Shown piece by piece: positions 806 through 21,905 of a stretch of 25,897 nucleotides of DNA. Numbering within the stretch: position 1 is the stretch's first letter; each line of letters opens with the position of its first letter. The notes under the pieces are model-generated. The model saw only the letters and a list, made by a program, of their open reading frames with translations. It did no database searches and had not been told where the DNA came from. The DNA is from a virus. The stretch spans positions 1-25,897 of IMG/VR virus record IMGVR_UViG_3300046690_000156. One strand, written 5' to 3'. The position numbers and the translations under genes are program-made.

Positions 806-985
806 ATGTTCCGCAGCAAGCGCCACAACCTGCCACAACCGGTGAATCCGTTCACCGCTCACGTCCAGATGTTCGAGCGACTTGAGATCGAACTACTCGC
901 CATCACCGCTGAGGCTGAGTCGATCGCTCAAGCCATCCTGGCGACACCGCTCTACCTGCCCACCCTGACCACCATCAACTGGTGA
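806..985 (+). CDS. Small hypothetical protein (59 aa)
   Basis: ATG 806 follows GAGAGGGGGTGAAACAAC, the same leader type as the two preceding small genes. The product has a basic N-terminus (MFRSKRHNL), a central amphipathic helix rich in Glu, Ala and Leu (about residues 20-44) and a hydrophobic C-terminal end (PLYLPTLTTINW). It is not long or hydrophobic enough to be called membrane-spanning. I do not recognise a family. Its stop codon TGA overlaps a GTG that could start a 30-codon frame, and a copy of the dispersed GGGGGTGTGCT motif begins at the stop. Confidence 0.65.
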   Translation: MFRSKRHNLPQPVNPFTAHVQMFERLEIELLAITAEAESIAQAILATPLYLPTLTTINW

Positions 986-1074
986 GCACACCCCCGAGCC
1001 GATACCGCTCAAGATCAACAGCGACCGGCAAGGGCAAGATCATCATCGAAGATGATCTTGTGCAAACACGTTGA
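982..1074 (+). CDS. Possible 30-aa peptide, translationally coupled
   Basis: GTG 982 overlaps the stop of the preceding gene in a GTGA arrangement, which is the coupling style used elsewhere in this window. The frame encodes 30 residues with MSTPPSRYRSRST at the start and KIIIEDDLVQTR at the end. Against it, the frame contains both the dispersed motif (985-995) and a perfect 10-bp hairpin (1035-1060), so the DNA may be regulatory rather than coding. There is no independent ribosome binding site. Treat it as tentative. Confidence 0.25.
   Translation: MSTPPSRYRSRSTATGKGKIIIEDDLVQTR
985..995 (-). repeat. Dispersed motif copy 1
   Basis: Exact GGGGGTGTGCT on the minus strand, starting in the stop codon of the 806-985 gene and lying at the entry to the non-coding gap. 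Confidence 0.8.
1035..1060 (+). terminator. Perfect 10-bp hairpin after the first small-gene unit
   Basis: CAAGATCATC (1035-1044) pairs perfectly with GATGATCTTG (1051-1060) around a six-base loop. It follows the third small gene, so it may end that transcript, though no T-run follows. Confidence 0.4.
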
Positions 1075-1093
1075 CCAATCGCCGCAGGTCAAC
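1070..1093. promoter_or_regulatory. Spaced inverted repeat GTTGACC/GGTCAAC
   Basis: GTTGACC (1070-1076) and GGTCAAC (1087-1093) are separated by 10 bases, so the half-site centres are about 17 bp apart, an operator-like arrangement. The TTGACC could also serve as a -35 box, but I see no good -10 at the right distance. Confidence 0.3.
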
Positions 1094-1137
1094 GGCACTA
1101 CCCTGGCACCCGATCGAGCCGATTTCTCAAGGTGTGA

Positions 1138-1389
1138 AGTGTCAGTATTTCTTCACTCTTGAGTGACTTCACTGTTGGTGGCCATTGTCCTCGGCATCGG
1201 TGCTGACGTTATTAATGCAGGTCACACTCTCTAATCACCCGTACATACAGATATACACACACACACACAAACGTATATATGTGTGTGGGTGATTAGAGTG
1301 TGTGACCTGCATTTATGACGTGAGCCACACTGTATTTCCTAGTGGCCACCAACAGTGAAGTCACGTAAGAGTGCAGGAAACCTGACACT
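1138..1389 (+). repeat. Long imperfect inverted repeat (103-bp arms)
   Basis: The left arm (1138-1240) and the reverse complement of the right arm (1287-1389) align without any gap, with 80 of 103 positions identical. Perfect blocks include GTGACTTCACTGTTGGTGGC and the inner AATGCAGGTCACAC and CTAATCACCC segments. The 46-base tip (1241-1286) is itself CACA/TGTG-rich and partly self-complementary, so nearly the whole 252 bases could fold into one rod. A poorly matched patch lies at arm positions equivalent to 1186-1201. There is no gene inside. It could be a structured RNA, a cruciform-forming origin element or a small non-autonomous mobile element. Confidence 0.9.
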
Positions 1390-1400
1390 CTACGTGTGGA

Positions 1401-1424
1401 AACTGGGAGCGAAACCGGGAGCGA
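1401..1424 (+). repeat. Tandem 12-bp repeat pair
   Basis: AACTGGGAGCGA is followed directly by AACCGGGAGCGA, identical at 11 of 12 positions. The pair is directly right of the long hairpin and looks like iterons or paired protein sites. Confidence 0.6.
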
Positions 1425-1479
1425 AAACTCACAAACCGGACTTATCGGGAGGTTGTAACGAGAGCAAGACGTTATAGCT

Positions 1480-1512
1480 GTGAGTTTCCTGTGAGTTTCC
1501 TGTGAGTTTCCT
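1480..1512 (+). repeat. Three tandem 11-bp repeats
   Basis: GTGAGTTTCCT occurs three times in perfect tandem array (1480-1490, 1491-1501, 1502-1512), ending just before the ribosome binding site GAAGGGAGG of the 1530 gene. The period is one helical turn, so a protein would see all copies on one face. The inverse sequence AAACTCAC occurs once at 1425-1432. Confidence 0.85.
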
Positions 1513-1529
1513 GTGAAGGGAGGCATTCG

Positions 1530-1619
1530 ATGTTGATCTTGATGGGCTGGGTCGTGCCGTGGGGATTCATCCTCACAGTGGGAGCGCTCGTCCTGATCGC
1601 CGGGACGATCAACCGGTGA
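1530..1619 (+). CDS. Small single-span membrane peptide (29 aa)
   Basis: ATG 1530 lies seven bases after a strong GAAGGGAGG ribosome site. The 29-residue product is almost wholly hydrophobic (WVVPWGFILTVGALVLIAGT across residues 7-26) and ends NR, so it would form one membrane span. Small membrane peptides are common in phage early regions and can affect host membranes or superinfection, but no specific function can be assigned. It is flanked by the iteron-like repeats on the left and a perfect hairpin on the right, so it may have its own short transcript. Confidence 0.65.
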   Translation: MLILMGWVVPWGFILTVGALVLIAGTINR

Positions 1620-1620
1620 G

Positions 1621-1646
1621 ACAACGGATCTCACGAGATCCGTTGT
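1621..1646 (+). terminator. Perfect 12-bp inverted repeat
   Basis: ACAACGGATCTC (1621-1632) is the exact complement of GAGATCCGTTGT (1635-1646) with only two bases between, and it begins two bases after the membrane peptide stop. It may end transcription, although no T-run follows, or it may be an operator for the long operon that begins at 1694. Confidence 0.45.
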
Positions 1647-1693
1647 GACACAAGCGAGGCAACGAAACGTCAAGGGAAGGGAGGTGAATCACC

Positions 1694-2008
1694 ATGAGAA
1701 CACCGCTGGAGGATCTGTTCGATTCGCTCATTAGCCAAGGTTGGGCGGACGCGCAGGGAGGCGACGTAGCAAGCCCCGCAGGGCATTACGCGCTGTTCAT
1801 CAACCGGAGGCGGGAGCGGGACCAGATCCTGCTGACCTCCGACATTCCGGAGGCTCAAGAGCTGGACCCGTCCGAGTACCTGGGAGCGTTCCTCGTCGTC
1901 ACGGACGACCAAGGGTTCCTCTGGATCAACAAGTTCAAGCATCCGGAGCAGGCGCGGAAAGCCTTCCACGCCAAGGAGATCGAGTACCAGAACTGGGAGG
2001 AAGCATGA
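1694..2008 (+). CDS. Hypothetical protein, first gene of the long operon (104 aa)
   Basis: ATG 1694 follows a good GGGAGGTGA ribosome site. The soluble product has an N-terminal helix (PLEDLFDSLISQGW), a central segment with NRRRERDQILLTSD and a C-terminal helix rich in Lys/Glu. There are no cysteines, signal peptide or membrane spans. I do not recognise a family. It opens a string of genes that run to 13800 with mostly 4-base or 1-base start/stop overlaps. Its stop overlaps the next ATG (ATGA at 2005). Confidence 0.85.
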   Translation: MRTPLEDLFDSLISQGWADAQGGDVASPAGHYALFINRRRERDQILLTSDIPEAQELDPSEYLGAFLVVTDDQGFLWINKFKHPEQARKAFHAKEIEYQNWEEA

Positions 2009-2868
2009 CCACAACGCTGTACTGGATCGACGCCGAGAGGGGAGGTGACTCACGGCTGAGCTGGAGCGACCTGCGCCGCTGGAAGCGCTACGAGGACGAC
2101 ATTCCAGTGCTCCTCCCGCCTTTCATGTCCTACGGGGACTACGACAATTCGGGAGTGGAGGAGCGCTCGAACGTGCGCCGAGTGCGGGAGGACTTCCCGG
2201 ACACGCCGGAGCAGGACAGTGTCTGGCGAGACCTGTACGGGGACTTCGGTTCTCGGGGACTCGTGCTGATGCTCCCGCCGTACATCCCCCGCTGGATGGG
2301 ACTCGTTGCGGGACAACGGGTTCACCGAAACCCCGCGCTGTCACAGCGCTTTCCGTCCGGGTTCTCGGAGGTGGAGAACGAAGTCTGGGGGGAGCACATC
2401 TCAGACTTCCTGATCGCCAGGATGTGGAGCCGGAACAGTCACAACCTCCCGAGCGACCAGTGGGACAACGCCGCCAGTGTCCTGGAGACCCTGGCGGAGC
2501 ACATCGCCTACGACGAGGACGACACCTACCAGATGCAGCAGGAGATGGTCGAGGAGGCCTGGACCGATTGGGGCTGGGACGACTTCAAGCGGGATCTCAC
2601 ACGGGAGCCACCGCTCCACTGGACCGACAACCTCCTGGAGTGCCTGGAGACCGTCCTGGACGCTCAGGACGCCGGGGGTGTGCTCGCGTGGCTCATGGAG
2701 CCGGGAGACCTTGACCACGGCGTCGAGGGAGGCGGGAACGTCTACTTCCGCTGGGAGACCCGACTGACCGAGGTCTGGGAGCAGTTCGAGGACCACGGCA
2801 CCCTGCCGTGGGACAACGCCGACAAGCCGGACACGACAGATCCGGCCCAATACCAACTGGAGGTCTGA
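2005..2868 (+). CDS. Hypothetical acidic, Trp-rich protein (287 aa)
   Basis: Translation starts at the ATG overlapping the preceding stop (ATGA), with GGGAGG just upstream, rather than at earlier in-frame starts that run back inside the 1694 gene. The 287-residue product is strongly acidic and rich in Trp, with repeated WxxD/E clusters (TDWGWDDFKRDL; WEQFEDHGTLPWDNADK). No signal peptide, membrane span or catalytic motif is visible. Highly acidic phage early proteins sometimes mimic DNA or bind host enzymes, but that is speculation. The segment encoding DDFKRDL is a 23-base exact repeat of one in the 5212 gene. The dispersed motif copy at 2674 lies inside the frame. Confidence 0.85.
   Translation: MTTTLYWIDAERGGDSRLSWSDLRRWKRYEDDIPVLLPPFMSYGDYDNSGVEERSNVRRVREDFPDTPEQDSVWRDLYGDFGSRGLVLMLPPYIPRWMGLVAGQRVHRNPALSQRFPSGFSEVENEVWGEHISDFLIARMWSRNSHNLPSDQWDNAASVLETLAEHIAYDEDDTYQMQQEMVEEAWTDWGWDDFKRDLTREPPLHWTDNLLECLETVLDAQDAGGVLAWLMEPGDLDHGVEGGGNVYFRWETRLTEVWEQFEDHGTLPWDNADKPDTTDPAQYQLEV
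2577..2599 (+). repeat. 23-bp exact direct repeat, copy A
   Basis: This stretch is identical to 5349-5371 and is read in the same frame in both genes, encoding a DDFKRDL segment. See the 5349 entry for the partner. Confidence 0.85.
2674..2684 (+). repeat. Dispersed motif copy 2
   Basis: Exact GGGGGTGTGCT inside the 2005-2868 gene, read there as codons for Gly-Gly-Val-Leu. Confidence 0.8.
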
Positions 2869-2871
2869 GTC

Positions 2872-3111
2872 ATGGCAGTTGAGCACCACGAGGGCGGGAC
2901 GACGATCACCGGGGGCGACATCGAGCGCCTGCGCCTGGTCGCGCTGCGGGGACGCCTGCGGCTGGAGGTCGCCGGGCTGCGGTTCAACGGGAGGCCGAGC
3001 GCCGTGATCATCCGGGAGGCGACGGGCCTGACCACGAGGAACAAGGCCAAGCTGCTGCTGGAGTTCGACCAGTGGCTGGACGACAACGGGATCAGGAAGG
3101 CGGGAGCATGA
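2872..3111 (+). CDS. Small hypothetical protein (79 aa)
   Basis: ATG 2872 lies three bases after the preceding stop, with GGAGG at the end of that gene serving as ribosome site. The product is basic in the middle (ERLRLVALRGRLRLEVAGLR) and predicted helical at its C-terminal end (KAKLLLEFDQWLDDNG). It contains no cysteine and no membrane span. The arrangement of Arg-rich helix and LTTRNKAKLLLEF could suit nucleic-acid binding, but no family is recognised. Its stop overlaps the next ATG (ATGA at 3108). Confidence 0.75.
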   Translation: MAVEHHEGGTTITGGDIERLRLVALRGRLRLEVAGLRFNGRPSAVIIREATGLTTRNKAKLLLEFDQWLDDNGIRKAGA

Positions 3112-3392
3112 ACAGCCTGTACCAGAACGCCGAGCAGCGTCACCGGGACGCCATGCAGGAGCCGCGCGGGGACGAGACGCCGATCGTGGATCTCCTCCAC
3201 GCGCTGGACGAGCTGGTCCCGAGGTACGCCGACGACTTCGTGTTGCGGGAGCCGGTGGCGCAGATCCTGAACGCCACCCTGGCGCTGCTGAACGGTCCGA
3301 TCGGCCGCCTGGACGGGGGCATGGTCTGGGACGTGGTCGAGAGGTTCGCGCACACCATGCACTACAACCTGGACGTGGAGGAGTTCGAGTGA
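3108..3392 (+). CDS. Hypothetical helical protein (94 aa)
   Basis: The start is the ATG of ATGA at 3108, preceded by GCGGGAGC. The 94-residue acidic product appears all-helical, with segments PIVDLLHALDELVPRYADDF and PVAQILNATLALLNGPIG. There is no cysteine, signal sequence or membrane span. I do not recognise a family. Its last codons and stop overlap the GTG of the next gene (GTGA at 3389), so the two are likely translated in concert. Confidence 0.75.
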   Translation: MNSLYQNAEQRHRDAMQEPRGDETPIVDLLHALDELVPRYADDFVLREPVAQILNATLALLNGPIGRLDGGMVWDVVERFAHTMHYNLDVEEFE

Positions 3393-3802
3393 AGATCAAG
3401 ACGACAACCTGCGAGGTGTGCGGGACGGAGCACATCGTCGGTGAGGACTGCCCGAACTACGGGTTCGGGGAGAAGCACCGGGAGGACTACCGCAACTTCG
3501 AGGAGCGGGAGATTGACGACGTGCTCCGGTGGTGCCAGGACGGCAGGGGGGACACGTTCCGCCTGGTGATCAGCACCGAGGCGGGACGCACCAAGCACCT
3601 GACCCTGACGCGGGAGCAGGTGCGGGTGATCCGGGGGATCTTCGCGGAGGGCTGGATGTGCTGCGAGCACACCATCCACGACGTGAGCCAGTGCGGGGAC
3701 ACACCCGCAGGTCTGAGCCGGGACGGCTACATCCTGTGTCGCCGTCACCTGGACGACTACAACGCGCTGGACAAGCTGGCGCGGGAGACGGAGGAGGAGT
3801 GA
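3389..3802 (+). CDS. Cys-rich probable zinc-binding protein (137 aa)
   Basis: Translation starts at GTG 3389, overlapping the preceding stop. The product has an N-terminal CEVCGTEH...C ribbon (residues about 8-23) and a second cluster CCEHTIHDVSQC with a later CRRH (about residues 91-119), which together suggest one or two structural zinc sites. Between them is a charged region containing FRLVISTEAGRTKHLTL. Such small zinc-ribbon proteins are frequent in actinophage early operons; their partners are mostly unknown. The stop overlaps the next GTG. Confidence 0.8.
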   Translation: MKIKTTTCEVCGTEHIVGEDCPNYGFGEKHREDYRNFEEREIDDVLRWCQDGRGDTFRLVISTEAGRTKHLTLTREQVRVIRGIFAEGWMCCEHTIHDVSQCGDTPAGLSRDGYILCRRHLDDYNALDKLARETEEE

Positions 3803-3930
3803 ACGAGTACGCGGTGAAGGTCATCTACGTGACCGAGGCCGAGTCCGAGCAGGACGCCATCGACCAGTTCCGGGAGTGGATCGCTGATCCGCACGTCGAA
3901 CTGGAAGCAACCGAACTGGAGGAGGAATGA
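3799..3930 (+). CDS. Very small acidic protein (43 aa)
   Basis: GTG 3799 overlaps the preceding stop (GTGA), and the end overlaps the next ATG (ATGA at 3927), so a 43-codon gene fits exactly between its neighbours; GGAGGAG lies immediately upstream. The product starts MNEYAVKVIYVTEAES and resembles a single beta-strand plus helix, with an acidic tail (LEATELEEE). The pattern KVIYVTEAESEQDAIDQFREW resembles the short ferredoxin-like strand-helix proteins seen in many phages. No function is assigned. Confidence 0.7.
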   Translation: MNEYAVKVIYVTEAESEQDAIDQFREWIADPHVELEATELEEE

Positions 3931-4784
3931 CAGCAGCAACACGGACCAGACGCCGGAGCCAAGCGCCTGGGACGGACAGCACACCCCCGGTGGAGATGCC
4001 GGAGTGGAGCCAGATCCTGGAGAAGGCGCTGACCACCCCTGGCAGCATCGGGAAGCAATACTCGCGCTTCTACCGGTACTCGCTGGGCAACACGGTGTGG
4101 CTCATGTTCCAGATGGAGCCGGAGCCGGTGGCCACGTACGAGCGCTGGAAGGCGATGGGACGGCAGGTCAAGCTGGGAAGCAAGGCCAAGTACATCCTCC
4201 GGCCGATCATGGTCAAGGACCGGGACGGAGCCACGGACGCCAACGGGGAGCCGAAGAAGTTCCGGCTGTTCAAGCCGAGCAAGTGCATCTTCGGACTGTC
4301 CGAGACGGACGGGCCACCCCTTCCGGATCAACCGGAGCAGGTGGAGGACTGGAACCTGGGATCGGCCCGAGCAGCACTGGGTGTCCGACTGGTGGAGTTT
4401 GATTCCACGGACGGGAACGTGCAGGGCTGGTCGAGCATGAGGAACGGGGAGCCGGTCTACGCGGTGAACCCGATCGCGGAGCACCCGCTCAAGACGGCGC
4501 TGCACGAGCTGGGACACATCATGTGCGGCCACTTCGAGGAAGGGGAGCGGTCAAGCCACGCGGGAGTGGCGGAGTTCCAAGCCGAGGCCACGGCGTTGCT
4601 CGTGGCGAAGGAGTTGGGGGTGTGCTCGGAGCAGCAGGAGGCCGAGTCACGGGGCTATATCCAGCACCACCTCCAGACCAGTAAGCCGACCGAATCCGAT
4701 ATTCGGAAGGTGTTCACCGCAGCAGACAAGATCCTCAAGGCCGGACGGCCGGAGGACACCACAGAACAGGAGCCACAGTCATGA
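3927..4784 (+). CDS. ArdC-like antirestriction protein with zinc-peptidase domain
   Basis: The N-terminal half (residues about 25-140) matches the ArdC-type ssDNA-binding domain: a helix pair with RYSLGNTVWLMFQ, followed by a basic segment (ERWKAMGRQVKLGSKAKYI). The C-terminal half carries a zincin motif, TALHELGHIMCGH at about residue 190, with a probable third ligand Glu in VAEFQAEATALLVAKEL about 22 residues later. ArdC proteins bind incoming single-stranded DNA and protect it from host restriction; the peptidase role is not settled. At 285 aa the length is normal for the family. ATG 3927 is coupled to the preceding gene. Its position early in the operon fits a protein made soon after DNA entry. 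Motif copies lie at 3978 and 4616. Confidence 0.85.
   Translation: MTAATRTRRRSQAPGTDSTPPVEMPEWSQILEKALTTPGSIGKQYSRFYRYSLGNTVWLMFQMEPEPVATYERWKAMGRQVKLGSKAKYILRPIMVKDRDGATDANGEPKKFRLFKPSKCIFGLSETDGPPLPDQPEQVEDWNLGSARAALGVRLVEFDSTDGNVQGWSSMRNGEPVYAVNPIAEHPLKTALHELGHIMCGHFEEGERSSHAGVAEFQAEATALLVAKELGVCSEQQEAESRGYIQHHLQTSKPTESDIRKVFTAADKILKAGRPEDTTEQEPQS
3978..3988 (-). repeat. Dispersed motif copy 3
   Basis: Exact copy on the minus strand, about 50 bases inside the ArdC-like gene, read on the plus strand as Ser-Thr-Pro-Pro. Confidence 0.8.
4616..4626 (+). repeat. Dispersed motif copy 4
   Basis: Exact copy on the plus strand near the end of the ArdC-like gene, read as Gly-Val-Cys-Ser, a different frame from copy 2. 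Confidence 0.8.
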
Positions 4785-5212
4785 GCATCACCACCGAGAT
4801 CGAGGAGCTGACCGCCACGAGGTTCACGGCGGAGCACCTGGCCAAGCGGTTCGGGAGCATCACCGAGCTGCCCGCCGAGAAGCAGCACGGCGAGGAGGTG
4901 TTCTGCATCAACATGGACAACCTCCCGGCCGCGTTCTGGGGGAAGGCGGGAGACTTCATCGCCGCCGTCGAGAAGGCCGGGATGCTGACCGGCAAGGAGT
5001 ACGGCGGGCACAAGGCGTGGCTGCCGCTGACGCCGGAGCAGAAGGCGCACCGTCTGGACGAGGCCAACCACGAGTGGGACAAGAAGGCGGACAAGTACGA
5101 CGCCGCCCTCGTGACCCGGACCCGTCCGGGTGACTGGAGCGACCGGTACGCCATCGAGTCCTACTGCAACCGGCGCGGCCTGTCGTTCCCGTGGGACGGG
5201 GAGGACAACTGA
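4781..5212 (+). CDS. Hypothetical protein (143 aa)
   Basis: ATG 4781 overlaps the preceding stop and follows GAACAGGAGCCA, the recurrent start-associated sequence. The product begins MSITTEIEELTATRFTAEHL and contains a central segment PAAFWGKAGDFIAAVEKAGML and a Lys/Asp-rich helix around HEWDKKADKYDAAL. There are two cysteines but no zinc pattern, and no signal or membrane segment. The stop shares a base with the next ATG (TGATG). No family is recognised; coupling to the ArdC-like gene suggests joint early expression. Confidence 0.8.
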   Translation: MSITTEIEELTATRFTAEHLAKRFGSITELPAEKQHGEEVFCINMDNLPAAFWGKAGDFIAAVEKAGMLTGKEYGGHKAWLPLTPEQKAHRLDEANHEWDKKADKYDAALVTRTRPGDWSDRYAIESYCNRRGLSFPWDGEDN

Positions 5213-5514
5213 TGGACGAGGTCACCGAGTACCAGAGCAGCGTGATGGAGGAACCGGACGGCACCATCGTCGTCCGGTTGCACCGTCGCACCATCGAGTA
5301 CGGGCAGGTGATGCCGTTCGTGGAGATCGGGACGCGGATCTTCACCCCGGACGACTTCAAGCGGGATCTCAGCGTGGGACCGGGGAGCGAACCCGCCCGG
5401 CAGAACTGCATCACCGCAGCGCAGCGCTGGGCGGACCGGCGCATGGCCGTGCTCACCCGGACCGGCCTGTACTGCACCATCTCGATCCAACCGGTGCGGG
5501 AGGTGGACAACTGA
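5212..5514 (+). CDS. Hypothetical protein (100 aa)
   Basis: ATG 5212 overlaps the previous stop in TGATG, with GGGGAGGAC directly upstream. The 100-residue product has a beta-rich N-terminal half (GTIVVRLHRRTIEYGQVMPF) followed by FTPDDFKRDLS and a helix with NCITAAQRWADRRMAV. The DNA for DDFKRDL is identical over 23 bases to part of the 2005-2868 gene, although the remaining proteins look unrelated. No known domain is visible. Its stop overlaps the next ATG. Confidence 0.78.
   Translation: MDEVTEYQSSVMEEPDGTIVVRLHRRTIEYGQVMPFVEIGTRIFTPDDFKRDLSVGPGSEPARQNCITAAQRWADRRMAVLTRTGLYCTISIQPVREVDN
5349..5371 (+). repeat. 23-bp exact direct repeat, copy B
   Basis: Identical to 2577-2599, 2.8 kb away. 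The shared frame (DDFKRDL) suggests either a short exchange between genes or a shared protein-binding peptide. Confidence 0.85.
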
Positions 5515-8313: not shown

Positions 8314-8886
8314 GTGAACGCACAATCGCTGCTGCCCGGAAAGGATCAGCACGCGCCACGCACCATCACCGTCAGCACACCCCCACGCCCGGCCACCGAG
8401 AAGCAGGTGGCGCTGATCGCCAAGCTCCGCCAGGAGAAGGACGACACCGGCATGGGGCCGACGCCGCCCGACCTGGACGTGACCACCGCGTCCACCGCCA
8501 TCGAGTGGCTGCTCAAGCGGCCCGCCCGGCCGAGGCCCGAGGTCGTCCGACTGGCCGAGGGCAACTACGAGCTGGACGGCACCGTGTACCGGGTCACCAG
8601 CTCCAACGAGACCGGCAACACCTACGTCCTGATCCTCAACCTGGAGCCGGAGGCCGTGGTCAAGGGAGCCAAGATGATCTGGCTGCACGACCCGAGCCAG
8701 ATGACGTACCGCAGGCTGTGTGAGCTGAACCCGCCCGTCATCAGCGCGGAGCGCGCCGGTCAGATCGGACATTTGTTCGAGCGGTGCATCTTCTGCAACC
8801 GGCACCTCAGCCGGGACGAGTCGGTCAACGGTGGCTTCGGGCAGAAGTGCGCGGCCAACAACGGACTTGAGTGGGGGGTGTGCTGA
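8314..8886 (+). CDS. DUF6011-like zinc protein (190 aa)
   Basis: I place the start at GTG 8314, four bases after GAACAGGAGCCA, because an ATG at 8242 would lie inside the preceding gene. The N-terminal region has TEKQVALIAKLRQEKD followed by a helix ending in EWLLKRPA, a pattern common to DUF6011-type proteins. The C-terminal 30 residues carry CIFCNRHLS and a later GGFGQKCA, the zinc pattern of DUF6011. Role unknown. The gene ends WGVC with the dispersed motif copy at 8874, and its stop overlaps the next ATG. Confidence 0.85.
   Translation: MNAQSLLPGKDQHAPRTITVSTPPRPATEKQVALIAKLRQEKDDTGMGPTPPDLDVTTASTAIEWLLKRPARPRPEVVRLAEGNYELDGTVYRVTSSNETGNTYVLILNLEPEAVVKGAKMIWLHDPSQMTYRRLCELNPPVISAERAGQIGHLFERCIFCNRHLSRDESVNGGFGQKCAANNGLEWGVC
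8374..8384 (-). repeat. Dispersed motif copy 5
   Basis: Exact copy on the minus strand, 60 bases inside the DUF6011-like gene, read as Ser-Thr-Pro-Pro. Confidence 0.8.
8874..8884 (+). repeat. Dispersed motif copy 6, at a gene start
   Basis: Exact copy on the plus strand ending just before ATG 8886. Its G-run doubles as the ribosome site of the HTH-like gene, so binding here could control that gene's translation or transcription. Confidence 0.8.
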
Positions 8887-9452
8887 TGGCTACGACACCG
8901 AAGGGCCGGGCCTGGCCACGGGGCCAGGAGGCGCGGATCTACCTGCGTCTGCCGGTCTGGAGCGCGATGGGGGCGCAGCGTCTGGCCCACCTACTGAACA
9001 TCAACATCGCCTCCGCCACCCGGATGCTGGGCGGGGCACCGGTCAGCGACAAGACGGTGGCCAGGGCGCTGATCCTGCGCAACGACAAGCTGTTCGGAGA
9101 TCTGTTCGAGATTCGTCTGGATGACCCTGACCTGATCGGTGTCAGGAGCCCGACCTTCTACCCGTTGAGCTATGTGGATGCGGTAGCGGATGGGATGCAA
9201 CCGAGCGAGGAGACGGACTTCGCGCTCGGGGTGTCCGGGTTGCACGTCACGATCTACCGGGGTCAGGAGCCGGTGATGACGCACACCCCGGACGGGACGA
9301 TCTACATCCACCCCGGAGGCCGGTCCGATGTCGGGCTGCATGAGGTGATCCGGAGGCGGTTCGGTCTGGAACCGGCCGACTATCCCGTGAGCGGAGTGTT
9401 CGCGGAGATCTCCGTGGCACGGACCAAGATGGCCAAGGAAGGCATGTCATGA
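8886..9452 (+). CDS. HTH-like probable DNA-binding protein (188 aa)
   Basis: ATG 8886 overlaps the previous stop (TGATG) with GGGGGG seven bases upstream. Residues about 29-60 (GAQRLAHLLNINIASATRML then GGAPVSDKTVARALI) resemble a phage-repressor type helix-turn-helix with the two-helix spacing and a Gly turn. The C-terminal part is beta-rich (LHVTIYRGQEPVMTHTPDGT). It could be a transcription regulator, but a repressor role is not shown, and no immunity genes are visible here. A motif copy sits on its own start, making it a candidate binder of the dispersed motif. That link is inference. Confidence 0.7.
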   Translation: MATTPKGRAWPRGQEARIYLRLPVWSAMGAQRLAHLLNINIASATRMLGGAPVSDKTVARALILRNDKLFGDLFEIRLDDPDLIGVRSPTFYPLSYVDAVADGMQPSEETDFALGVSGLHVTIYRGQEPVMTHTPDGTIYIHPGGRSDVGLHEVIRRRFGLEPADYPVSGVFAEISVARTKMAKEGMS

Positions 9453-9745
9453 GCTTGATCACCATCGACCCGGAGCGGCTGTTCACCACCGCCGACTTCG
9501 CCCGGATCACCGGAGTGCAACCACAGTCGGCACGGTCCTGGGTGCGGCGGCATTGGAACGAGCTGCCACCCCCGGTGTTCACGCTCGCACTGGGTGGCGG
9601 GAAGTTCGTCTACGTCTGGACCGAGGACGACGGTAAGACCGTCATCAACGCCTACAAGCTTGCGAAGGAGCAATGGCCGGTCGCCAAGTGGACGGCCAAC
9701 AACAACGGGGGAAACCTCAACCCGAGAACAGGAGCCAGCACATGA
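9449..9745 (+). CDS. Winged-helix/MerR-like DNA-binding protein (98 aa)
   Basis: ATG 9449 overlaps the preceding stop (ATGA). Residues about 11-40 (LFTTADFARITGVQPQSARS then WVRRHW) look like the helix-turn-helix of MerR/excisionase-type proteins, followed by a beta-hairpin wing (GGGKFVYVW). Excisionases and small regulators have this size. No integrase is present in the window, so I do not call it Xis. The stop overlaps ATG 9742. Confidence 0.65.
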   Translation: MSLITIDPERLFTTADFARITGVQPQSARSWVRRHWNELPPPVFTLALGGGKFVYVWTEDDGKTVINAYKLAKEQWPVAKWTANNNGGNLNPRTGAST

Positions 9746-10265: not shown

Positions 10266-10282
10266 AACAGGAGCGCACCCCC

Positions 10283-13288: not shown

Positions 13289-13800
13289 GGGAAGTCCGCA
13301 TAGATTCGTTTTGTGATTGGTGCGTCAAGGACGGCAACATCCGGACTCCGTCCGAGCTGACGTTCCACGTCGTCATCAACACCGTGGTGCTCCAGCGTCC
13401 TCAGACGCACATGCTCGATGTGTGCGCCGCCCACTACAAGAGCCGCATCCTGGAGTTCGCGGATCTGCTGGAGCAACTGCCGGTCTCCGACCTGGCCGAC
13501 GAGCCCACGTTCAGCACACCCCCGAGGGTGAAGGCCAAGGCGAGGGGCAAGGCGGAGGAGATCGAGCGGTGCCCGTTCTGCCCGGAGGAGATGCGGCACG
13601 CCAGCCTGGTCACGCACCTCTGGAACAAACACTCCGGGCCGGGCAAGCGACCGGACCCACCGAAGAAGTGCCCGGAGTGCGGAGCGGTCATGGTGAACCC
13701 CAGCCACATGGGGACGCACCGGGCACAGTCCCACGGTTGGTCCGCGATGGGGGCGGCAATCGCCGCCGCCTATGACTACGCCGCCCGTGTGCCCGAGTAG
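13285..13800 (+). CDS. Multi-zinc-finger protein (171 aa)
   Basis: The N-terminal 60 residues have FCDWC and a later LDVCAAHY, a zinc pair pattern met in Lsr2-like and other actinophage regulators. The C-terminal half has two C2H2-like fingers: CPFCPEEMRHASLVTHLWNK plus H, and CPECGAVMVNPSHMGTHR with a following SH. The two domains are joined by a basic linker (RVKAKARGKAEE). A nucleic-acid-binding role is likely, with target unknown. It is the last gene of the long operon, ending in TAG just before a strong hairpin. A dispersed motif copy lies at 13513. Confidence 0.82.
   Translation: MREVRIDSFCDWCVKDGNIRTPSELTFHVVINTVVLQRPQTHMLDVCAAHYKSRILEFADLLEQLPVSDLADEPTFSTPPRVKAKARGKAEEIERCPFCPEEMRHASLVTHLWNKHSGPGKRPDPPKKCPECGAVMVNPSHMGTHRAQSHGWSAMGAAIAAAYDYAARVPE
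13513..13523 (-). repeat. Dispersed motif copy 7
   Basis: Exact copy on the minus strand inside the zinc-finger gene, read as Ser-Thr-Pro-Pro. Confidence 0.8.
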
Positions 13801-15304: not shown

Positions 15305-16085
15305 ACCGCGATTCATCGGGGGTGTCCTCATCCAAAAGGCGCAGGCCCTCAACGAACCCAAGTCGATCATGATCCTGGGCCACCCGAAGCGCGGCAAGTC
15401 CACCCTCGGTGCCTCACTGATCGAGGTGCCCGGCTACTCCCGCATCCTGGCCATCGACGTGGATGGGGGGTGTGCTGGATACGCCGACCAGTACCCGAAC
15501 GTGGACGTGGTGGGCGTGGACTACGGTGACGCCGCCACGGTGAGCAAGATCATCATGGAGCTGGCCGAAGATCCGACCGGTGCGGGCTACGACGGCGTCA
15601 TGCTCGACACGCTGTCGGTCCTCCAGGACTGGAAGATTGACGAGATCGGGCACGGCCGGAAGCTCGAATGGGACCAGTGGGATCTGGTCGCCAAGTGGAC
15701 CAACAAGGTGATGTGGCTCCTCCATTCGATGAAGCCGCTCGGGGTCAGCGTCTATCACATCAAGACCGAGAAGGACGAGCTGACCCGTGAGGTGTGGAAG
15801 CTGCCGAAGATCCGGGGCAGCGCCAAGGACACCGTCGCCACGGTGCCTGATCTGATCATCGAGATCCGCATCGTGGACACCAAGGACGGCCCGGTCCGGG
15901 TGGTGGACTGCGTGCCTCACGAGACCGCCACCACCGGCAACCGCTACGCCTACATGCCGGTGCAGCCCATCAGCGATGCCACCATGTCCGATCTGTTCAG
16001 CTACATCCGGCACGAGCGCACCGACGTGCCCACCGCCCCGCTCACGGCAGCCGACCGGTTCGCTGCCGGGTCCGACGCGGAGTAA
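15258..16085 (+). CDS. Sak4-like RecA-fold recombination ATPase (275 aa)
   Basis: GTG 15258 lies inside the end of the exonuclease gene (47-base overlap), after AACGGAGC. Walker A is ILGHPKRGKSTLGAS (about residues 38-52) and Walker B is DGVMLDTLS (about 112-120); the layout fits the phage AAA/RecA-fold nucleotide-binding family (AAA_24, Sak4-like). Sak4 proteins bind single strands and promote annealing, usually next to an exonuclease and an SSB, exactly as here. The C-terminal end is a disordered-looking tail (VPTAPLTAADRFAAGSDAE). Dispersed motif copies lie at 15466 and, with one mismatch, at 15318. Confidence 0.85.
   Translation: MTKAQAAQPIPSLESEPRFIGGVLIQKAQALNEPKSIMILGHPKRGKSTLGASLIEVPGYSRILAIDVDGGCAGYADQYPNVDVVGVDYGDAATVSKIIMELAEDPTGAGYDGVMLDTLSVLQDWKIDEIGHGRKLEWDQWDLVAKWTNKVMWLLHSMKPLGVSVYHIKTEKDELTREVWKLPKIRGSAKDTVATVPDLIIEIRIVDTKDGPVRVVDCVPHETATTGNRYAYMPVQPISDATMSDLFSYIRHERTDVPTAPLTAADRFAAGSDAE
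15466..15476 (+). repeat. Dispersed motif copy 8
   Basis: Exact copy on the plus strand in the Sak4-like gene, read as Gly-Gly-Cys-Ala; a one-mismatch copy with the same orientation lies 148 bp upstream (15318-15328). Confidence 0.8.
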
Positions 16086-16668: not shown

Positions 16669-16710
16669 ACCGGTCCCGCTGGCTTCCTCAGCAGCGGGAC
16701 CGGTTCTGTT
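16669..16710 (+). terminator. Strong intrinsic terminator
   Basis: A perfect 13-bp stem (16669-16681 with 16692-16704) with loop GCTTCCTCAG is followed by TCTGTTAT. It begins eight bases after the DUF669 stop and splits the recombination genes from the primase-polymerase genes. Confidence 0.75.
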
Positions 16711-16715
16711 ATCTG

Positions 16716-16726
16716 AGCACACCCCC
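16716..16726 (-). repeat. Dispersed motif copy 9, intergenic
   Basis: Exact copy on the minus strand between the terminator and the ribosome site of the primase-helicase gene, an operator-like place. Confidence 0.85.
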
Positions 16727-16746
16727 AGCATCGAGAGGAGGGCGGG

Positions 16747-18939
16747 GTGGCAGAGGGAGCGGACTACACCGAGTTCGTCGGAGCGCTGCTGGGGGAGGGC
16801 TATATCGGCTGGCTGTGCTTCGGTCGCATCCGGCCGGGTCAGACGGCTCAGACCCCGGACTTCAAGGTTGATGTTCAGGACTGGTTCCAGTGGCCGTATG
16901 AGGAACCGGCGATCAACGAGTTCATCCAGGCCCACCTCGCTGATGATCTCTACATGTCCCCGATGCTGTTCGACACCAAGCGTCGGGTCAAGGACAACGT
17001 CAGCTATACGCCGGTCCTGTGGGTGGATGTCGATACCGCTGACCCGGAGCTGTTCGCGTTGGAGCCGACCATCCTGGTGGAGACATCGCCCGGCAGGTAT
17101 CAGGCGTACTGGCTCCTGAGTGACACGGTGCAGCCGATGTGGGCCGAGAGCATGTCGCGGCGCATCACCTACACACAGCGCGCCAAGGGCAGCGACACAG
17201 GCTGGTCTCTGGGCAAGTTCCTGCGGGTGCCGGGCACCACCAACAACAAGTACAAGGAACCCTTCACCGTCCAGATGCTGGTGAAGGGTGAGGTCTACAG
17301 CGCCGACGACATCATCCACGCCTTCGGTGCCGTCGATGTCTCGGCGCTCGCGGGCATGAACCGCGAGATGCCGAAGGTCATGCCCGACCGCACGCTGGTG
17401 CTGGCCAAGGTGCCGCTGGAGTACCAGATCCAGAACGCGATGACGGTCTCACCGGATGACAACGCCGACTGGAGCAAGAAACTGTTCTGGCTGGAGTGTG
17501 AGCTGTTCCGTTACAAGCTCACCGCACCCGAGGTGTTCGTCGCGGTCAGGGGGTGTGCTTGTGATAAGTACGAGCGCGACCGCCGACCGGAGATCGACCT
17601 ATGGGTGGATGTCCTGCGCGCCGAGGCGTCGGTGGCGCAGCAGATGCTCACGGGTATCGAGCCCGCGCTTGAGAACGAGATCTTCGAGTTCGAGGCCCCC
17701 CGGTTCGTCACCGTGGCGGAACGTGACAGCGTGGACACCACGTTCATCGACCGATACGTGGAGTGGGCAGCCGGAAAGACCAGAGCTGACAAGGGTTATC
17801 ACGAGTTCAGTGCGATGGCGATCCTGTCCACGGTGCTCGGTGACTTCGGCTATGCCATCCCCAAGTTCGGCAGGCTCCAGCTCAACATGTGGTTCATGAT
17901 CATGGGTGTCACCACTCGGACGTACAAGACCACGGCCAAGCGGCTGATGCTGGATGTTCTCCGGCTGATCCGCACCGACAACTATGACTACGATCTCGGA
18001 TCTGATGCCACTGCCGAAGGTCTCATCTCCGAGATGGCGGACCGCCCCGACCGTTCCGTGCTGTTCCACCGTGATGAGGTGGATGCCCTGTTCGACGCCT
18101 CCAAGGGTGGCAAGGGATACATGGGCGGGTTCCTTGAGTTCCTGACGGAAGCGTTTGACGGCTACATGCGAGGCAAGATCCGGTCCACCGGGTCACAGAA
18201 ACGCACCGAGGAAGTGGCGGTGGCGTTCAATGCCTACTTCGCTGGTGTTCCCGACAAGATCGGAATGGTCCTGACTCCGGAGGATTTCGCGTCCGGGTTC
18301 ATGGTGCGATTCCTGTTCTGCATCGGCAAGCCCGAGCCCGCATCCGACACGATGAACCACCACGAGCAACAAGTGGTGGATGCCCAGTCACGGCCCAATG
18401 ACACCGCCTATCTTGCGCTGTGTCAGTCGCTGTTGGACGCCCGTAACTACTGGGCGCAGCGTGCCTCACCCGACAATAAGACACCGATCATCCTGGACCA
18501 GCCTGCCTTGGATCGGATGAATCAGTTCATCACTGAGATGGACAAGATCATCGCCAAGAGTAAGTACCCCGAGGTGGTCGAGGCCGGAGCGAAGCGTATG
18601 ACGATCGCTGTATGGAAGCTGTCTTGCCTTGTCGCCATGATGTCCCGGCGCTCGGTCGTCAGTCTTACAGACATGCTGACGGCCATCATCTACGCCGAGC
18701 GTTGGTATCTCGGACTCAACCAAGTCATCGCCATCGTCGGCCGCAATGCATTCGCTGCCCAGGTCATGGAAATCTGCACCTGGGTATCGGACAATGGCCC
18801 GGTCTCCTATGCACAGTTGGTGCGTAGGTTCTCGAACTACACACCCCGACAATGGGATGACGTTTATCGGTCGGCCATTGATCAACAACGCATCAAGGAG
18901 GATCGCGTTGGTAATGCGAGGATGGTGACAGCGTTATGA
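16747..18939 (+). CDS. Primase-helicase (AEP/RepB-type primase plus helicase)
   Basis: GTG 16747 follows GAGAGGAGGGCGG. The N-terminal 220 residues fit an archaeo-eukaryotic/RepB-like primase: PVLWVDVDT with the metal-binding Asp pair (about residues 90-96), then ETSPGRYQAYWLLS, then KFLRVPGTTNNKYKEP. The central part is an SF3/DUF3987-type helicase: Walker A MGVTTRTYKTTAKR (about 386-399) and Walker B SVLFHRDEVDALFD (about 436-449). The C-terminal part, about residue 685 on, has a winged-helix flavour (PVSYAQLVRRFSNYTP). At 730 aa it is a normal bifunctional phage protein that would unwind DNA and make primers for the family A polymerase encoded downstream. The domain names rest on motifs alone. 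Confidence 0.85.
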   Translation: MAEGADYTEFVGALLGEGYIGWLCFGRIRPGQTAQTPDFKVDVQDWFQWPYEEPAINEFIQAHLADDLYMSPMLFDTKRRVKDNVSYTPVLWVDVDTADPELFALEPTILVETSPGRYQAYWLLSDTVQPMWAESMSRRITYTQRAKGSDTGWSLGKFLRVPGTTNNKYKEPFTVQMLVKGEVYSADDIIHAFGAVDVSALAGMNREMPKVMPDRTLVLAKVPLEYQIQNAMTVSPDDNADWSKKLFWLECELFRYKLTAPEVFVAVRGCACDKYERDRRPEIDLWVDVLRAEASVAQQMLTGIEPALENEIFEFEAPRFVTVAERDSVDTTFIDRYVEWAAGKTRADKGYHEFSAMAILSTVLGDFGYAIPKFGRLQLNMWFMIMGVTTRTYKTTAKRLMLDVLRLIRTDNYDYDLGSDATAEGLISEMADRPDRSVLFHRDEVDALFDASKGGKGYMGGFLEFLTEAFDGYMRGKIRSTGSQKRTEEVAVAFNAYFAGVPDKIGMVLTPEDFASGFMVRFLFCIGKPEPASDTMNHHEQQVVDAQSRPNDTAYLALCQSLLDARNYWAQRASPDNKTPIILDQPALDRMNQFITEMDKIIAKSKYPEVVEAGAKRMTIAVWKLSCLVAMMSRRSVVSLTDMLTAIIYAERWYLGLNQVIAIVGRNAFAAQVMEICTWVSDNGPVSYAQLVRRFSNYTPRQWDDVYRSAIDQQRIKEDRVGNARMVTAL
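17549..17559 (+). repeat. Dispersed motif copy 10
   Basis: Exact copy on the plus strand inside the primase-helicase gene, read as Gly-Cys-Ala after Arg. Confidence 0.8.
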
Positions 18940-19352
18940 CCTGGTCTCCCAGTATTCCCGATACCGAAGTCGGGCGTATCGAACTGCTGAACTGGCTGTG
19001 TCAGGCACACCACGACATGGAAACGGCACCGTACCCATCTGCGGGTAGGGCAACGCTACCCAAGATCGCCAGCATGGGGGTGCTGTCGGTCCATCAACTG
19101 TCACTGCTCTACGGATATGCCCGGCCGTACATGTACGAGAAGCTGCGGGCGCTGGAGATACCGATACCCGACAAGGATTACCAGGGGTGGGTCGATCCAC
19201 GGGGATTCGAGAAGATGAAGATCCTTGTCATGGCCTGCACCAATCGCAGACCCATACCCAAGGAAGTACTGGAAGCCATGCCCAAATGCGGACGCCGAGG
19301 GGTCGTGCGTTACTTGACCGGCTACGACTACATGACCGGAGAACTCTCATAG
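18936..19352 (+). CDS. Hypothetical replication-associated protein (138 aa)
   Basis: ATG 18936 overlaps the primase-helicase stop (ATGA). The product has a helical N-terminal half, and LSVHQLSLLYGYARPYMYEK followed by LRALEIPIPD could be a helix-turn-helix with short wing. Two Cys are present but do not form a zinc pattern. It lies between the primase-helicase and the DNA polymerase, so a replisome or regulatory role is likely, but no family is recognised. Confidence 0.75.
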   Translation: MTWSPSIPDTEVGRIELLNWLCQAHHDMETAPYPSAGRATLPKIASMGVLSVHQLSLLYGYARPYMYEKLRALEIPIPDKDYQGWVDPRGFEKMKILVMACTNRRPIPKEVLEAMPKCGRRGVVRYLTGYDYMTGELS

Positions 19353-19360
19353 GAGCCACC

Positions 19361-21433
19361 ATGGAACTGCAAATCGTGAGCGACTACCCGCTCATAGACG
19401 ATGTCTGGCAGGTGATCATCGACACCTGCCGCCGTTACCCGTCCATCACCGGCATCCAGGAGATCACCGCTGCTGACGACATCGACGTGGACCGACCCCT
19501 GCTAGTGCTGGGCAGACCCGAACGGGCCGCAGGACTGACGCCCACCGCTCGGATGCCGCTGTCCGTGAAGCAGATCCTGGGGACCAGTGGCGGCGGCACC
19601 AAGCTGGACCACGCCATCCGACTGATCGCCAACCCGCTTGCCGAGGTCCAACGGGTGACCCTGAGCACACCCCCGAGGTGGCGCGATGAGGTGATCGCCG
19701 TGGACATCGAGGTCTCCGGGGACATCCAGGTGGACGAGCCCGAGGACACCGAACTGCTCTCGGTTTCTGTGGCCCGTCAGTCCAGCCCCACCACGATCGA
19801 GACGTACGCCTTCACTCAGGAGGCCCTGAGATCGCCGGAGACGCGCCAGACCCTCATCTGGCTGGTCAGCGCCAACCGCACGATCTGGCACAACGGCAAG
19901 TTCGACTGCCGCTGGCTGATCCCGTACCTCGGGCGGACCATCTACCCGGACCACGACACCATGCTCATGCACGCCTGCCTGTACCCGGCAGCGGGTGAGA
20001 ACTCCCTCAAGGATCTCGCCAAGCGAATGTTCAACGCGCCGGATTGGGAAGCGGATGTCAAGAAATACACGCGGAGCAAGGCGCACTACGAGCGCATCCC
20101 GCAAGACGTACTGGTGGACTACAACCAATGGGATGTCTACTGGACGATCCGGCTGTTCGACAGACTGTGGGATGAACTTGACTACCATGCGCCAGCTAAG
20201 GCGCTGTACTACAAACACGTACTCCCCGCCTCGCACATGTTGCAGGACGTAGAGCAATACGGGATGCCGGTGGACACCGAGTACGGTGAACTGCTGTCCG
20301 AAGAACTGGGGATCGAGATCTCCCGGATCACCGACGATTTGCGCGATCTCGTTCACAGCGACACCTTCAACCCCGGATCGACGCAACAGATCCAGCAGAT
20401 CCTCACCAACCGCTGGGGCTACACACTCAGCAGCACCGACGAGAAGTCCCTCGCCACGCTGCGACTGACCCAGATCCCTGATGATCTTGAGACGTTCTGC
20501 GGGGGTGTGCTCGATTACCGGTCGCTCTCCAAGATCCGGGGCACGTACCTCACCGGGATCTTGAGCAAGGTCCGCGACGGTCGGGTCCACCCGACGTTCC
20601 TCCTGCACGGCACCAGCACCGGCCGGTTGTCCTCGCGTAAGCCCAACGCCCAGAACCTCAAGAACGACGAGGAGGGCAGGCCGTCCGTCAAGCGGATGTT
20701 CCATGCCCGGCCGGGCCGGGCCATCGTCGGGGTGGACTACGCACAGGCTGAGCTACGTGTCATGGCCGAGCTGTCCGGTGATGAGCTGATGATCGCTGAT
20801 CTCCAGGCCGATGCTCCGGACTTCTTCGACAACATGCTGCCGTCCGTGTTCCCTGACGTGGACTTCACCCTGCTGACCAAGGAACAGCGCAAGCCCTACC
20901 GGCTCCGCCTCAAGCGGGTGGTGTACGGCACCAGCTACGGTCTGACCGCGCCCAGTGTGGCCACCCTGTTGACGCTGGAGGGCACGCCGACCACAGCAGC
21001 GGAGGCGGCGTTCATCCAGAACGGCTACCTCGGCAGGTATCCCGGACTCCGGGCGTGGCGGGCCAGCATTGGCGAGCGGGTGGTTGCCGGGGATGATCTG
21101 ATCACGCCGTTCGGTCGCCGGTTCCAACAGGACACGGTGACCGCTGGCTACTGGCGGCGCATCCAGAACCAGGCGTTGGCCTTCACCCCGCAATCCATTG
21201 CCAGTGACATCTGCGTCACAGCAGCGATCGCACTGCACCCGTTGCTGTTGACAATGGACGCGCACATCATTGTGCTGGTGCATGATCAGATCTGTGCGGA
21301 ATGCCCCGAAGAAGATGCACAAGAAGTGGCCGACTTGATAGCCGAGAACATGCGTGAAGCAGCGCGGCTCTACTTCACCCGCACTCCCTTCCTTTGCGAC
21401 GGACATTTCGGTGCTCATCTTGCCCAAGTCTGA
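19361..21433 (+). CDS. Family A DNA polymerase with 3'-5' exonuclease (690 aa)
   Basis: ATG 19361 follows ATAGGAGCCACC. After an N-terminal extension of about 105 residues of unknown fold come exonuclease motifs: VDIEVSG (about residue 114), IWHNGKFDCRWL (about 174-185) and NQWDVYWT (about 255). The polymerase part has GRLSSRKPNAQN (about 420), motif A GVDYAQAELRVMAELSGD (about 456-473), motif B RLKRVVYGTSYG (about 514-526) and motif C VLVHDQICAE (about 637-646). All core Asp residues are present, but motif C reads HDQ where most family members have HDE. The 5'-3' exonuclease domain of bacterial Pol I is absent, as usual in phages. This is the replicative polymerase. Confidence 0.95.
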   Translation: MELQIVSDYPLIDDVWQVIIDTCRRYPSITGIQEITAADDIDVDRPLLVLGRPERAAGLTPTARMPLSVKQILGTSGGGTKLDHAIRLIANPLAEVQRVTLSTPPRWRDEVIAVDIEVSGDIQVDEPEDTELLSVSVARQSSPTTIETYAFTQEALRSPETRQTLIWLVSANRTIWHNGKFDCRWLIPYLGRTIYPDHDTMLMHACLYPAAGENSLKDLAKRMFNAPDWEADVKKYTRSKAHYERIPQDVLVDYNQWDVYWTIRLFDRLWDELDYHAPAKALYYKHVLPASHMLQDVEQYGMPVDTEYGELLSEELGIEISRITDDLRDLVHSDTFNPGSTQQIQQILTNRWGYTLSSTDEKSLATLRLTQIPDDLETFCGGVLDYRSLSKIRGTYLTGILSKVRDGRVHPTFLLHGTSTGRLSSRKPNAQNLKNDEEGRPSVKRMFHARPGRAIVGVDYAQAELRVMAELSGDELMIADLQADAPDFFDNMLPSVFPDVDFTLLTKEQRKPYRLRLKRVVYGTSYGLTAPSVATLLTLEGTPTTAAEAAFIQNGYLGRYPGLRAWRASIGERVVAGDDLITPFGRRFQQDTVTAGYWRRIQNQALAFTPQSIASDICVTAAIALHPLLLTMDAHIIVLVHDQICAECPEEDAQEVADLIAENMREAARLYFTRTPFLCDGHFGAHLAQV
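19664..19674 (-). repeat. Dispersed motif copy 11
   Basis: Exact copy on the minus strand in the DNA polymerase gene, read as Ser-Thr-Pro-Pro, between the N-terminal extension and the exonuclease domain. Confidence 0.8.
20501..20511 (+). repeat. Dispersed motif copy 12
   Basis: Exact copy on the plus strand in the DNA polymerase gene, read as Gly-Gly-Val-Leu. Confidence 0.8.
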
Positions 21434-21434
21434 G

Positions 21435-21905
21435 ATGCCGCAGTCGATCTTGTCCATTGATCCCGGCCCTCACACCGGGTGGGTCGAGTTCGCCATCTCG
21501 GCAGACAGTGCGGCCGAGATCTATGCACATGGGCTGGTGTATCCCTCGGACTACTCCACGATCGCCACGATCTACCGGAGCTTCCTCCACTCAGCACACC
21601 CCCCGACACTGGTGATCTGCGAGAAGTGGATCGACATCCCCTACATCGACCACGCCACGGCCAGTGAGGTGGTCCAGCAGCAGATCGGGGTGATCCGGCA
21701 GCTCACCCAGGACGGGGGTGTGCCCCTCGTCCTGGCCCCGCCGCAGGCCCGGACGCAGATCACCCCGGAGACGCTGTACGCCTCCGGGTACCGCATGGAG
21801 GGACGGGACTACGACCACGTCCGCCAGGCCACCAGACACGGTCTAGCATGGCTGGTCGATCACCGCCACAGGCCGACCATCGACCGGCTGTACCCCCGGA
21901 ACTAG
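21435..21905 (+). CDS. RuvC-like Holliday junction resolvase (156 aa)
   Basis: ATG 21435 starts one base after the polymerase stop. The N-terminal strand ILSIDPGPHTGWVEFA carries the first catalytic Asp (about D9), VICEKW gives the Glu (about E63) and DYDHVRQATRHGLAW gives the C-terminal Asp region, matching the RuvC-type resolvase fold. It would cut branched DNA during recombination or before packaging. It is the last rightward gene; its stop TAG lies in the left arm of the following terminator. Motif copies are at 21593 and, with one mismatch, 21714. Confidence 0.85.
   Translation: MPQSILSIDPGPHTGWVEFAISADSAAEIYAHGLVYPSDYSTIATIYRSFLHSAHPPTLVICEKWIDIPYIDHATASEVVQQQIGVIRQLTQDGGVPLVLAPPQARTQITPETLYASGYRMEGRDYDHVRQATRHGLAWLVDHRHRPTIDRLYPRN
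21593..21603 (-). repeat. Dispersed motif copy 13, rightmost exact copy
   Basis: Exact copy on the minus strand in the resolvase gene, in another frame (Ala-His-Pro-Pro). No exact copy lies to its right; a one-mismatch copy is at 21714-21724. Confidence 0.8.

Follow-up and report, generated by a model that had tools for sequence, protein, structure and literature searches.

Why would a phage carry one 11-bp word many times over, on both strands and mostly inside its genes? The question is raised by IMG/VR virus record IMGVR_UViG_3300046690_000156, whose positions 1 to 25,897 (the window, that is, the whole stretch of DNA analyzed) contain 13 exact copies of GGGGGTGTGCT. The answer favored here, and probably the right one, is that the phage's own primase (16747-18939) begins primer synthesis at each copy, the copies being spaced at Okazaki distances. 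The copy number, the even spacing on one strand, the link with a primase domain across phages, and the predicted fold of that domain are established below; from these we infer binding and priming at the motif by this primase, the sequence of the primer, and its use for Okazaki fragments.

The 11-bp word and its spacing

A sequence-only reading of the window had reported 13 exact copies in strictly alternating orientation, with well under one expected by chance, and three near copies. All coordinates and strands are correct, alternation is strict within the window, and dinucleotide shuffles give 0.04 expected copies. Each near copy carries a single mismatch, which in two cases breaks the core T-GTG-C.

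985..995, minus strand: exact copy of GGGGGTGTGCT
2674..2684, plus strand: exact copy of GGGGGTGTGCT
3978..3988, minus strand: exact copy of GGGGGTGTGCT
4616..4626, plus strand: exact copy of GGGGGTGTGCT
8374..8384, minus strand: exact copy of GGGGGTGTGCT
8874..8884, plus strand: exact copy of GGGGGTGTGCT
10272..10282, minus strand: one-mismatch copy, GGGGGTGCGCT; T-GTG-C broken, doubtful site
13513..13523, minus strand: exact copy of GGGGGTGTGCT
15318..15328, plus strand: one-mismatch copy, GGGGGTGTCCT; T-GTG-C broken, doubtful site
15466..15476, plus strand: exact copy of GGGGGTGTGCT
16716..16726, minus strand: exact copy of GGGGGTGTGCT, immediately upstream of the primase gene
17549..17559, plus strand: exact copy of GGGGGTGTGCT
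19664..19674, minus strand: exact copy of GGGGGTGTGCT
20501..20511, plus strand: exact copy of GGGGGTGTGCT
21593..21603, minus strand: exact copy of GGGGGTGTGCT
21714..21724, plus strand: one-mismatch copy, GGGGGTGTGCC; core intact

A circle of 52,736 bp is completed by two IMG/VR contigs, which overlap both the window and one another. No mismatches occur in the overlaps, where the only differences are indels at 216-218 and, at 498, in an ACC repeat; copies of the word are identical across the overlaps. On the circle GGGGGTGTGCT is the top word among the 8-13-mers scanned, with 26 exact copies versus 0.03 expected (10 on the plus strand and 16 on the minus strand, versus 0.02 on each). The late arm outside the window contributes 13 of these; the earlier statement that the minus-strand late arm lacks the word is thus true of the 4 kb that the window covers and untrue of the remainder. 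Besides the 26 exact copies, the circle has 9 with one mismatch (six plus, three minus) and 19 with two, so the word is nearly all-or-none. T-GTG-C is present in every exact copy, and there is little conservation of the flanks.

Selection at the level of DNA, also proposed from the sequence alone, is supported by the gene context. Copies wholly within called genes number 22 of the 26, 13 of them sense and 9 antisense, in various frames. The codon-preserving shuffle that had been suggested as a check gave 5.1 copies on average and never more than 8 when the circle was shuffled 300 times; since the four copies not wholly in called genes largely escape such a shuffle, the comparison inside genes is 22 observed versus about 1 expected. 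These data are compatible with a strand-specific binding site.

Round the circle, the strands follow the order -+-+-+-+-+-+--+-+--+--+---. Alternation is therefore not strict outside the window, although the 20 of 26 neighbors that do alternate are more than expected for 10 plus and 16 minus copies in random order (P about 0.003), the test of orientation order that the sequence-only reading had put forward. The minus array of 16 copies has gaps of 714-5,263 bp (mean 3,296; coefficient of variation, CV, 0.36), an evenness matched by none of 20,000 random sets and by 0.05% of strand relabellings. Gaps of 1,000-6,000 bp make up 15 of the 16 on the minus strand and only 6 of the 10 on the plus strand. 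If the plus array is rotated against the minus one, the mean is 17.3 alternations, and the observed 20 is reached in 12.8% of rotations, indicating that no pairing of sites is needed. Alternation is thus mostly the product of two interleaved arrays, and largely of even spacing on one strand. As a design in itself (looping or paired sites, as had been suggested), it is unsupported, being neither strict on the circle nor in need of more than this spacing for most of its explanation.

The primase domain and the word in other phages

The proposed reader of the word is a primase-helicase whose gene and domains, together with the neighboring polymerase gene, are as follows.

16747..18939, plus strand: primase-helicase gene, 730 amino acids, AEP primase (RepB_primase) plus DUF3987; PHROG 10514, E 3.3e-127, both Pfam families above cut-off
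16747..17346, plus strand: predicted AEP catalytic domain, codons 1-200; AlphaFold2 model and structure matches
17335..17652, plus strand: predicted helix-bundle domain, codons 197-302, proposed GTG binder; matches to the pRN1 bundle
19187..21433, plus strand: family A DNA polymerase; Pfam DNA_pol_A, E 8.9e-59

An AlphaFold2 model of primase residues 1-345, built from 30 viral-contig sequences aligned with the window primase, has a mean pLDDT of 87. Its best Foldseek matches in the PDB are RSF1010 RepB' (3h20, 3h25; E 1e-10), S-2L PrimPol, and the RepB' catalytic domain with DNA, and RepB' is also the sole PDB sequence match below E 0.01 in a profile search (E 0.0075). With VIA-align, the catalytic domain matches S-2L PrimPol at Z 16.8 (root-mean-square deviation, rmsd, 2.9 over 170) and the RepB' catalytic domain at Z 15.3 (rmsd 3.6 over 179). 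Both domains together match RepB' at Z 15.5 with an rmsd of 16.8 over 250, indicating that the two domains are placed differently; the pRN1 primase matches at Z 8.5 (rmsd 11.2 over 239) and NrS-1 at Z 7.0-7.3. PDB families missing from the VIA-align list are not counted as excluded. The helix bundle aligns with the pRN1 bundle 6gt7 at Z 7.8 (rmsd 3.8 over 99) and with 9rtj, which contains DNA, at Z 7.5 (rmsd 3.7 over 96), modest values, in a range that chance can produce for helical domains. The N-terminal domain is thus predicted to be an AEP primase plus helix bundle, like the RepB', pRN1, and NrS-1 primases.

The N-terminal 331 residues of the primase retrieved 327 records, of which 13 were analyzed; among the matches listed, many domain-bearing genes are annotated as RecA-like recombinase or primase/helicase. 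Genomes were scanned for over-represented words with no regard to genes, and some were read in part (40 of 45 kb for Cleo, 60 of 68 kb for Yappy and Shrew, 80 of 187 kb for Satis). A TGTGC or TGTGG word (TGTGS) is the most over-represented one in 22 of the 32 genomes or contigs that have the N-terminal domain and in none of six without a detectable one (Fisher P 0.003), and such a word reaches 1e-8 in 25 of 32 versus one of six (Fisher P 0.008); P is optimistic because the genomes were mostly picked by primase homology, many are interrelated, and the controls number six. GTGTGC words occur in Molivia and Amigo, and CTGTGC words in Yappy, Nonagon, CMP1, and Stenotrophomonas phage Jojan60. GGTGTGG or TGTGGCC words are on top in CherryonLim, Emalyn, Muddy, JacoRen57, Triscuit, Shrew, Ilzat, PrincePhergus, and Cheeto1, and GTGTGG in Tlacuache; GGTGTGG or GTGTGGCC words are found in those Gordonia, Mycobacterium, Microbacterium, and Curtobacterium phages whose domain-bearing gene carries a recombinase or primase/helicase annotation. 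The exact 11-mer is private to this phage within the records searched (present in 2 of 20, 0 of 14, and 0 of 11 records of three sets, with one copy per positive record).

The scan is not blind to other motifs, since it also recovers the Jabith stoperator word and the TM4 start-associated word. The sole control reaching 1e-8 is G010, a phage contig without this primase, where the word belongs to a start-associated repeat; GGTGTTGACA occurs in it 17 times and AGGAGCACACCAT words are repeated, which looks like start-associated sequences alongside a set of stoperator- or promoter-like sites.

Copy positions are conserved above background between Ilzat and both Cheeto1 and PrincePhergus, between Shrew and Triscuit, and between G016 and G017. 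From Amigo to Molivia the P value is 0.03 and in reverse 0.12, and conservation is not significant for Muddy with JacoRen57 or Cleo with Emalyn. Close relatives have thus kept some sites and turned over others. Even spacing recurs in Shrew and Cheeto1, where it holds on both strands, and so does the excess of alternation.

Which gene, then, accompanies the word? A tblastn comparison of the 59 called proteins of this phage with 37 other genomes finds the primase in 23 of 23 motif-bearing relatives, a result that is partly by construction, the relatives having been chosen largely by primase. It is unlikely that the copies instead serve another protein of the replication and recombination module (an origin binder, a Chi-type recombination hotspot, or a genome organizer) that is co-inherited with the primase. 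The window does carry genes for a helicase, a Cas4-like exonuclease, Sak4, and an SSB-like protein, and tblastn would miss fast-evolving small genes; however, these proteins are found in fewer of the 23 relatives than the primase is (helicase 13, exonuclease 9, Sak4 4, SSB 4). PolA is found in 19 but also in five of six motif-less controls, and AEP primase templates have this GTG core.

The RecA-like group, which has TGTGG in place of the TGTGC of this phage, shares with it little except primase residues between 17 and 297 and PolA, the extras being helicase in CherryonLim and Emalyn and one late protein in Cheeto1. Among genomes with the word on top, the base after GTG is G in 10 of 10 of this group; where the primase matches along most of its length, it is C in 11 and G in one (G023); to judge from the alignment, all members of this near-full-length group would have DUF3987. 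In WaterT, where the primase match starts at residue 320 and covers only the C-terminal part, the word is not present.

Proposed primase start sites weighed against other readings

A primase start site would work as follows. Read as a single strand, the template would be 5'-GGGGG-T-GTG-CT-3'. The helix-bundle domain would hold GTGC, and the catalytic domain would begin the primer opposite the T directly 5' of GTG, making A the first nucleotide. Copying of the G run would give a primer 5'-A-CCCCC-NN, whose GC-rich opening bases would stabilize it, and the family A polymerase of the phage would extend it. T precedes GTG in the TGTGS words (C in the CN1A word), so that their primers would start with A (or G). 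Because an 11-bp site is rare, copies would be needed on each strand every few kilobases; selection would maintain two interleaved arrays, whose neighbors tend to alternate.

Published work provides precedents for parts of this scheme. The pRN1 primase requires GTG in the template, holds it with its helix bundle, and makes 8-nt primers from the base 5' of GTG; a nuclear magnetic resonance (NMR) study of it used the template 5'-CTGTGCTCA (PMC8076596, PMC11009956). The NrS-1 primase is efficient on GTGG and GTGA and starts at the base 5' of these, its authors proposing TTTGGTTA for site-specific start and GTG for restart (PMC8718748). In T7, Okazaki fragments are about 1,000-6,000 nt with a mean of about 3,000, and which of hundreds of candidate sites fire is still described as unsettled (PMC12839067); 15 of the 16 minus-strand gaps here fall in that size range. 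The literature searched, including the surveys PMC7302621 and PMC5513430 in the parts available, contains no report of the present words as primase sites, which is weak evidence of absence.

Several observations weigh against the primase reading. Recognition of 11 bp by such a primase would be new, only GTG being biochemically established. On the plus strand, the 10 exact copies show no significant evenness (P 0.11). That array becomes more even once its six one-mismatch copies are included (P 0.012), but the minus array loses evenness when its three are included (CV 0.48, still P 0.0004). Molivia, Amigo, Emalyn, and others lack even spacing, the strand-relabelling test falls below 0.05 in 4 of 12 genomes, and Muddy (21 plus, 1 minus) and CherryonLim (19 and 2) are nearly one-stranded, which would require one-directional forks. 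If the inverted repeat near 1264 is taken as the origin, the right arm of this phage holds 7 plus and 7 minus copies and the left arm 3 plus and 9 minus. Left-moving forks in the left arm would agree with this balance, but the right arm lacks the plus excess required by a right-moving fork from that assumed origin.

Other phages add to these difficulties. A TGTGS word is not on top in 10 of the 32 domain-bearing genomes or contigs: it ranks 2 in G018, 3 in Cleo, and 14 in the Desulfofustis phage, CN1A has CCGTGCG on top and ctEqG8 has CCTGTAGG, the part of Satis scanned has none on top, and G015, G019, G020, and G021 have no clear one. At primase-bearing loci of 8-22 kb, the word is on top in 7 of 21, several of them pieces of scanned contigs; this locus scan omitted words with fewer than three different letters, which hid TGGTGTGG, and the uniform genome scan had no such filter. 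G021 has no word even though its catalytic part is present (residues 47-187 matched). Its helix-bundle region looks shortened in the pairwise alignment, which would fit the primase reading, albeit post hoc. The match to JacoRen57, PrincePhergus, and the Desulfofustis phage is confined to the catalytic part and does not extend to the helix bundle. The podovirus record ctEqG8, whose AEP domain is related, has CCTGTAGG (as CCTACAGG) 27 times versus 1.8 expected; its primase may use GTA in place of GTG.

The sequence-only reading had likened the copies to stoperators, asymmetric operators scattered through a genome, where transcription is stopped by a repressor or silencer of the phage. Such a role is improbable. 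The motif is indeed dispersed, asymmetric, and mostly intragenic, with 26 copies in 52.7 kb, recalling those of cluster A, and a weak HTH_17 match at 9449-9745 (E 0.016, below cut-off) leaves room for a DNA-binding protein. Nevertheless, the copies do not clearly favor one direction with respect to genes (13 of 22 sense), whereas those of Jabith run mostly in one direction (22 of 27) and are clustered (CV 1.36 on the plus strand). The minus-strand spacing is even, the core is GTG, and the word tends to track the primase domain and varies with its subtype, leaving the parallel unsupported. No immunity repressor or integrase family was detected among the proteins scanned, a subset of the open reading frames (ORFs), and the helix-turn-helix candidate proposed earlier (8871-9452) matches no Pfam or PHROG family. 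Start-associated sequences of the cluster K type, which lie at ribosome-binding sites next to start codons, were rejected, as 22 of 26 copies fall wholly inside called genes.

A target or escape mark of modification, restriction, or host defense, or a sequence artifact, might be suspected from so exact a word with so little flank conservation, but is very improbable: related words recur in independently sequenced isolate genomes, the same copies appear in overlapping contigs, and defense targets tend toward depletion rather than maintenance at even spacing.

Genome setting and known systems

Window genes on the plus strand encode the helicase, an HNH endonuclease, the Cas4-like exonuclease, Sak4, the SSB-like protein, the primase, the family A polymerase, and a weakly RuvC-like protein; tail genes lie on the minus strand. 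An ArdC-like anti-restriction protein with a possible metallopeptidase part lies at 3927-4784. Nested long inverted repeats at 1138-1389 (52-nt arms, 83%; 47-nt arms, 87%) occupy an AT-richer gap separating leftward from rightward genes and look like a replication origin or regulatory center. At 1478-1516 there is an iteron-like 11-bp tandem repeat of CTGTGAGTTTC in 3.5 identical copies, of the same length between assemblies. An (ACC)18.7 repeat at 498-553, within the leftward ORF 268-855, is length-variable, being 12 bases shorter in the overlapping contig. At 50958-50989 of the circle, two head-to-head copies of the word, one mismatched, form a strong hairpin between two late genes (folding energy z -4.5), maybe a terminator or a special start site; the motif as part of a hairpin was rejected as a general account, since it holds for this pair only (near 50958/50979).

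Among 50,697 phage records, none is closely related to the window at the DNA level. Protein relatives of its primase are mainly in Microbacterium, Gordonia, and Arthrobacter phages; the terminase has its best matches in Arthrobacter, Streptomyces, and Curtobacterium phages and its most numerous in Salinibacter phages. The host is likely actinobacterial. A search of GTDB genomes limited to two peptide patterns found no primase relatives.

It is an even call whether the finding extends to a general picture, in which a large, scattered class of phages with the AEP primase domain would carry a genomic map of lagging-strand starts. A stringent primase (up to 11 bp here) would then fix the number, strand, and spacing of Okazaki starts, the word would follow the primase subtype (mostly GTGC for DUF3987-like and GTGG for RecA-like), and strand balance would give fork direction. 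In the literature covered, primase specificity has so far been worked out enzyme by enzyme on short templates; here, genomes themselves seem to report the recognition sequences of many AEP primases, some of them from phages that infect laboratory hosts. The specificity of these enzymes, the use of their sites, and enzyme-site coevolution thereby become directly testable, and dispersed, alternating phage repeats gain an explanation other than gene regulation.

Among known systems, the stoperators of cluster A and the start-associated sequences of cluster K are also dispersed, short, asymmetric words and are found by the same scan; they differ in being mostly or wholly one-directional, in the clustering of stoperators, and in the words themselves. 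RSF1010 RepB', the best Foldseek match to the window primase, acts at two fixed plasmid hairpin sites (ssiA and ssiB) and is not known to act at dispersed ones. The T7 primase sites, (G/T)2GTC, likewise set lagging-strand starts by sequence, with fragments of about 1-6 kb, but they are read by a DnaG-type enzyme with a zinc domain, and they are short and in large excess, with flanks deciding the choice. NrSPol of NrS-1 is, as here, a phage AEP enzyme with a helix bundle; it doubles as the replicative polymerase, whereas this phage has a separate PolA and an 11-bp site. ORF904 of pRN1 differs as a plasmid primase with a 3-nt core, for which the sources covered describe no long, enriched, evenly spaced site. 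It has, like the present enzyme as we read it, an AEP catalytic domain followed by a helix bundle, a GTG core, and a start at the base 5' of GTG, and its NMR template, 5'-CTGTGCTCA-3', is similar to the TGTGCT found here.

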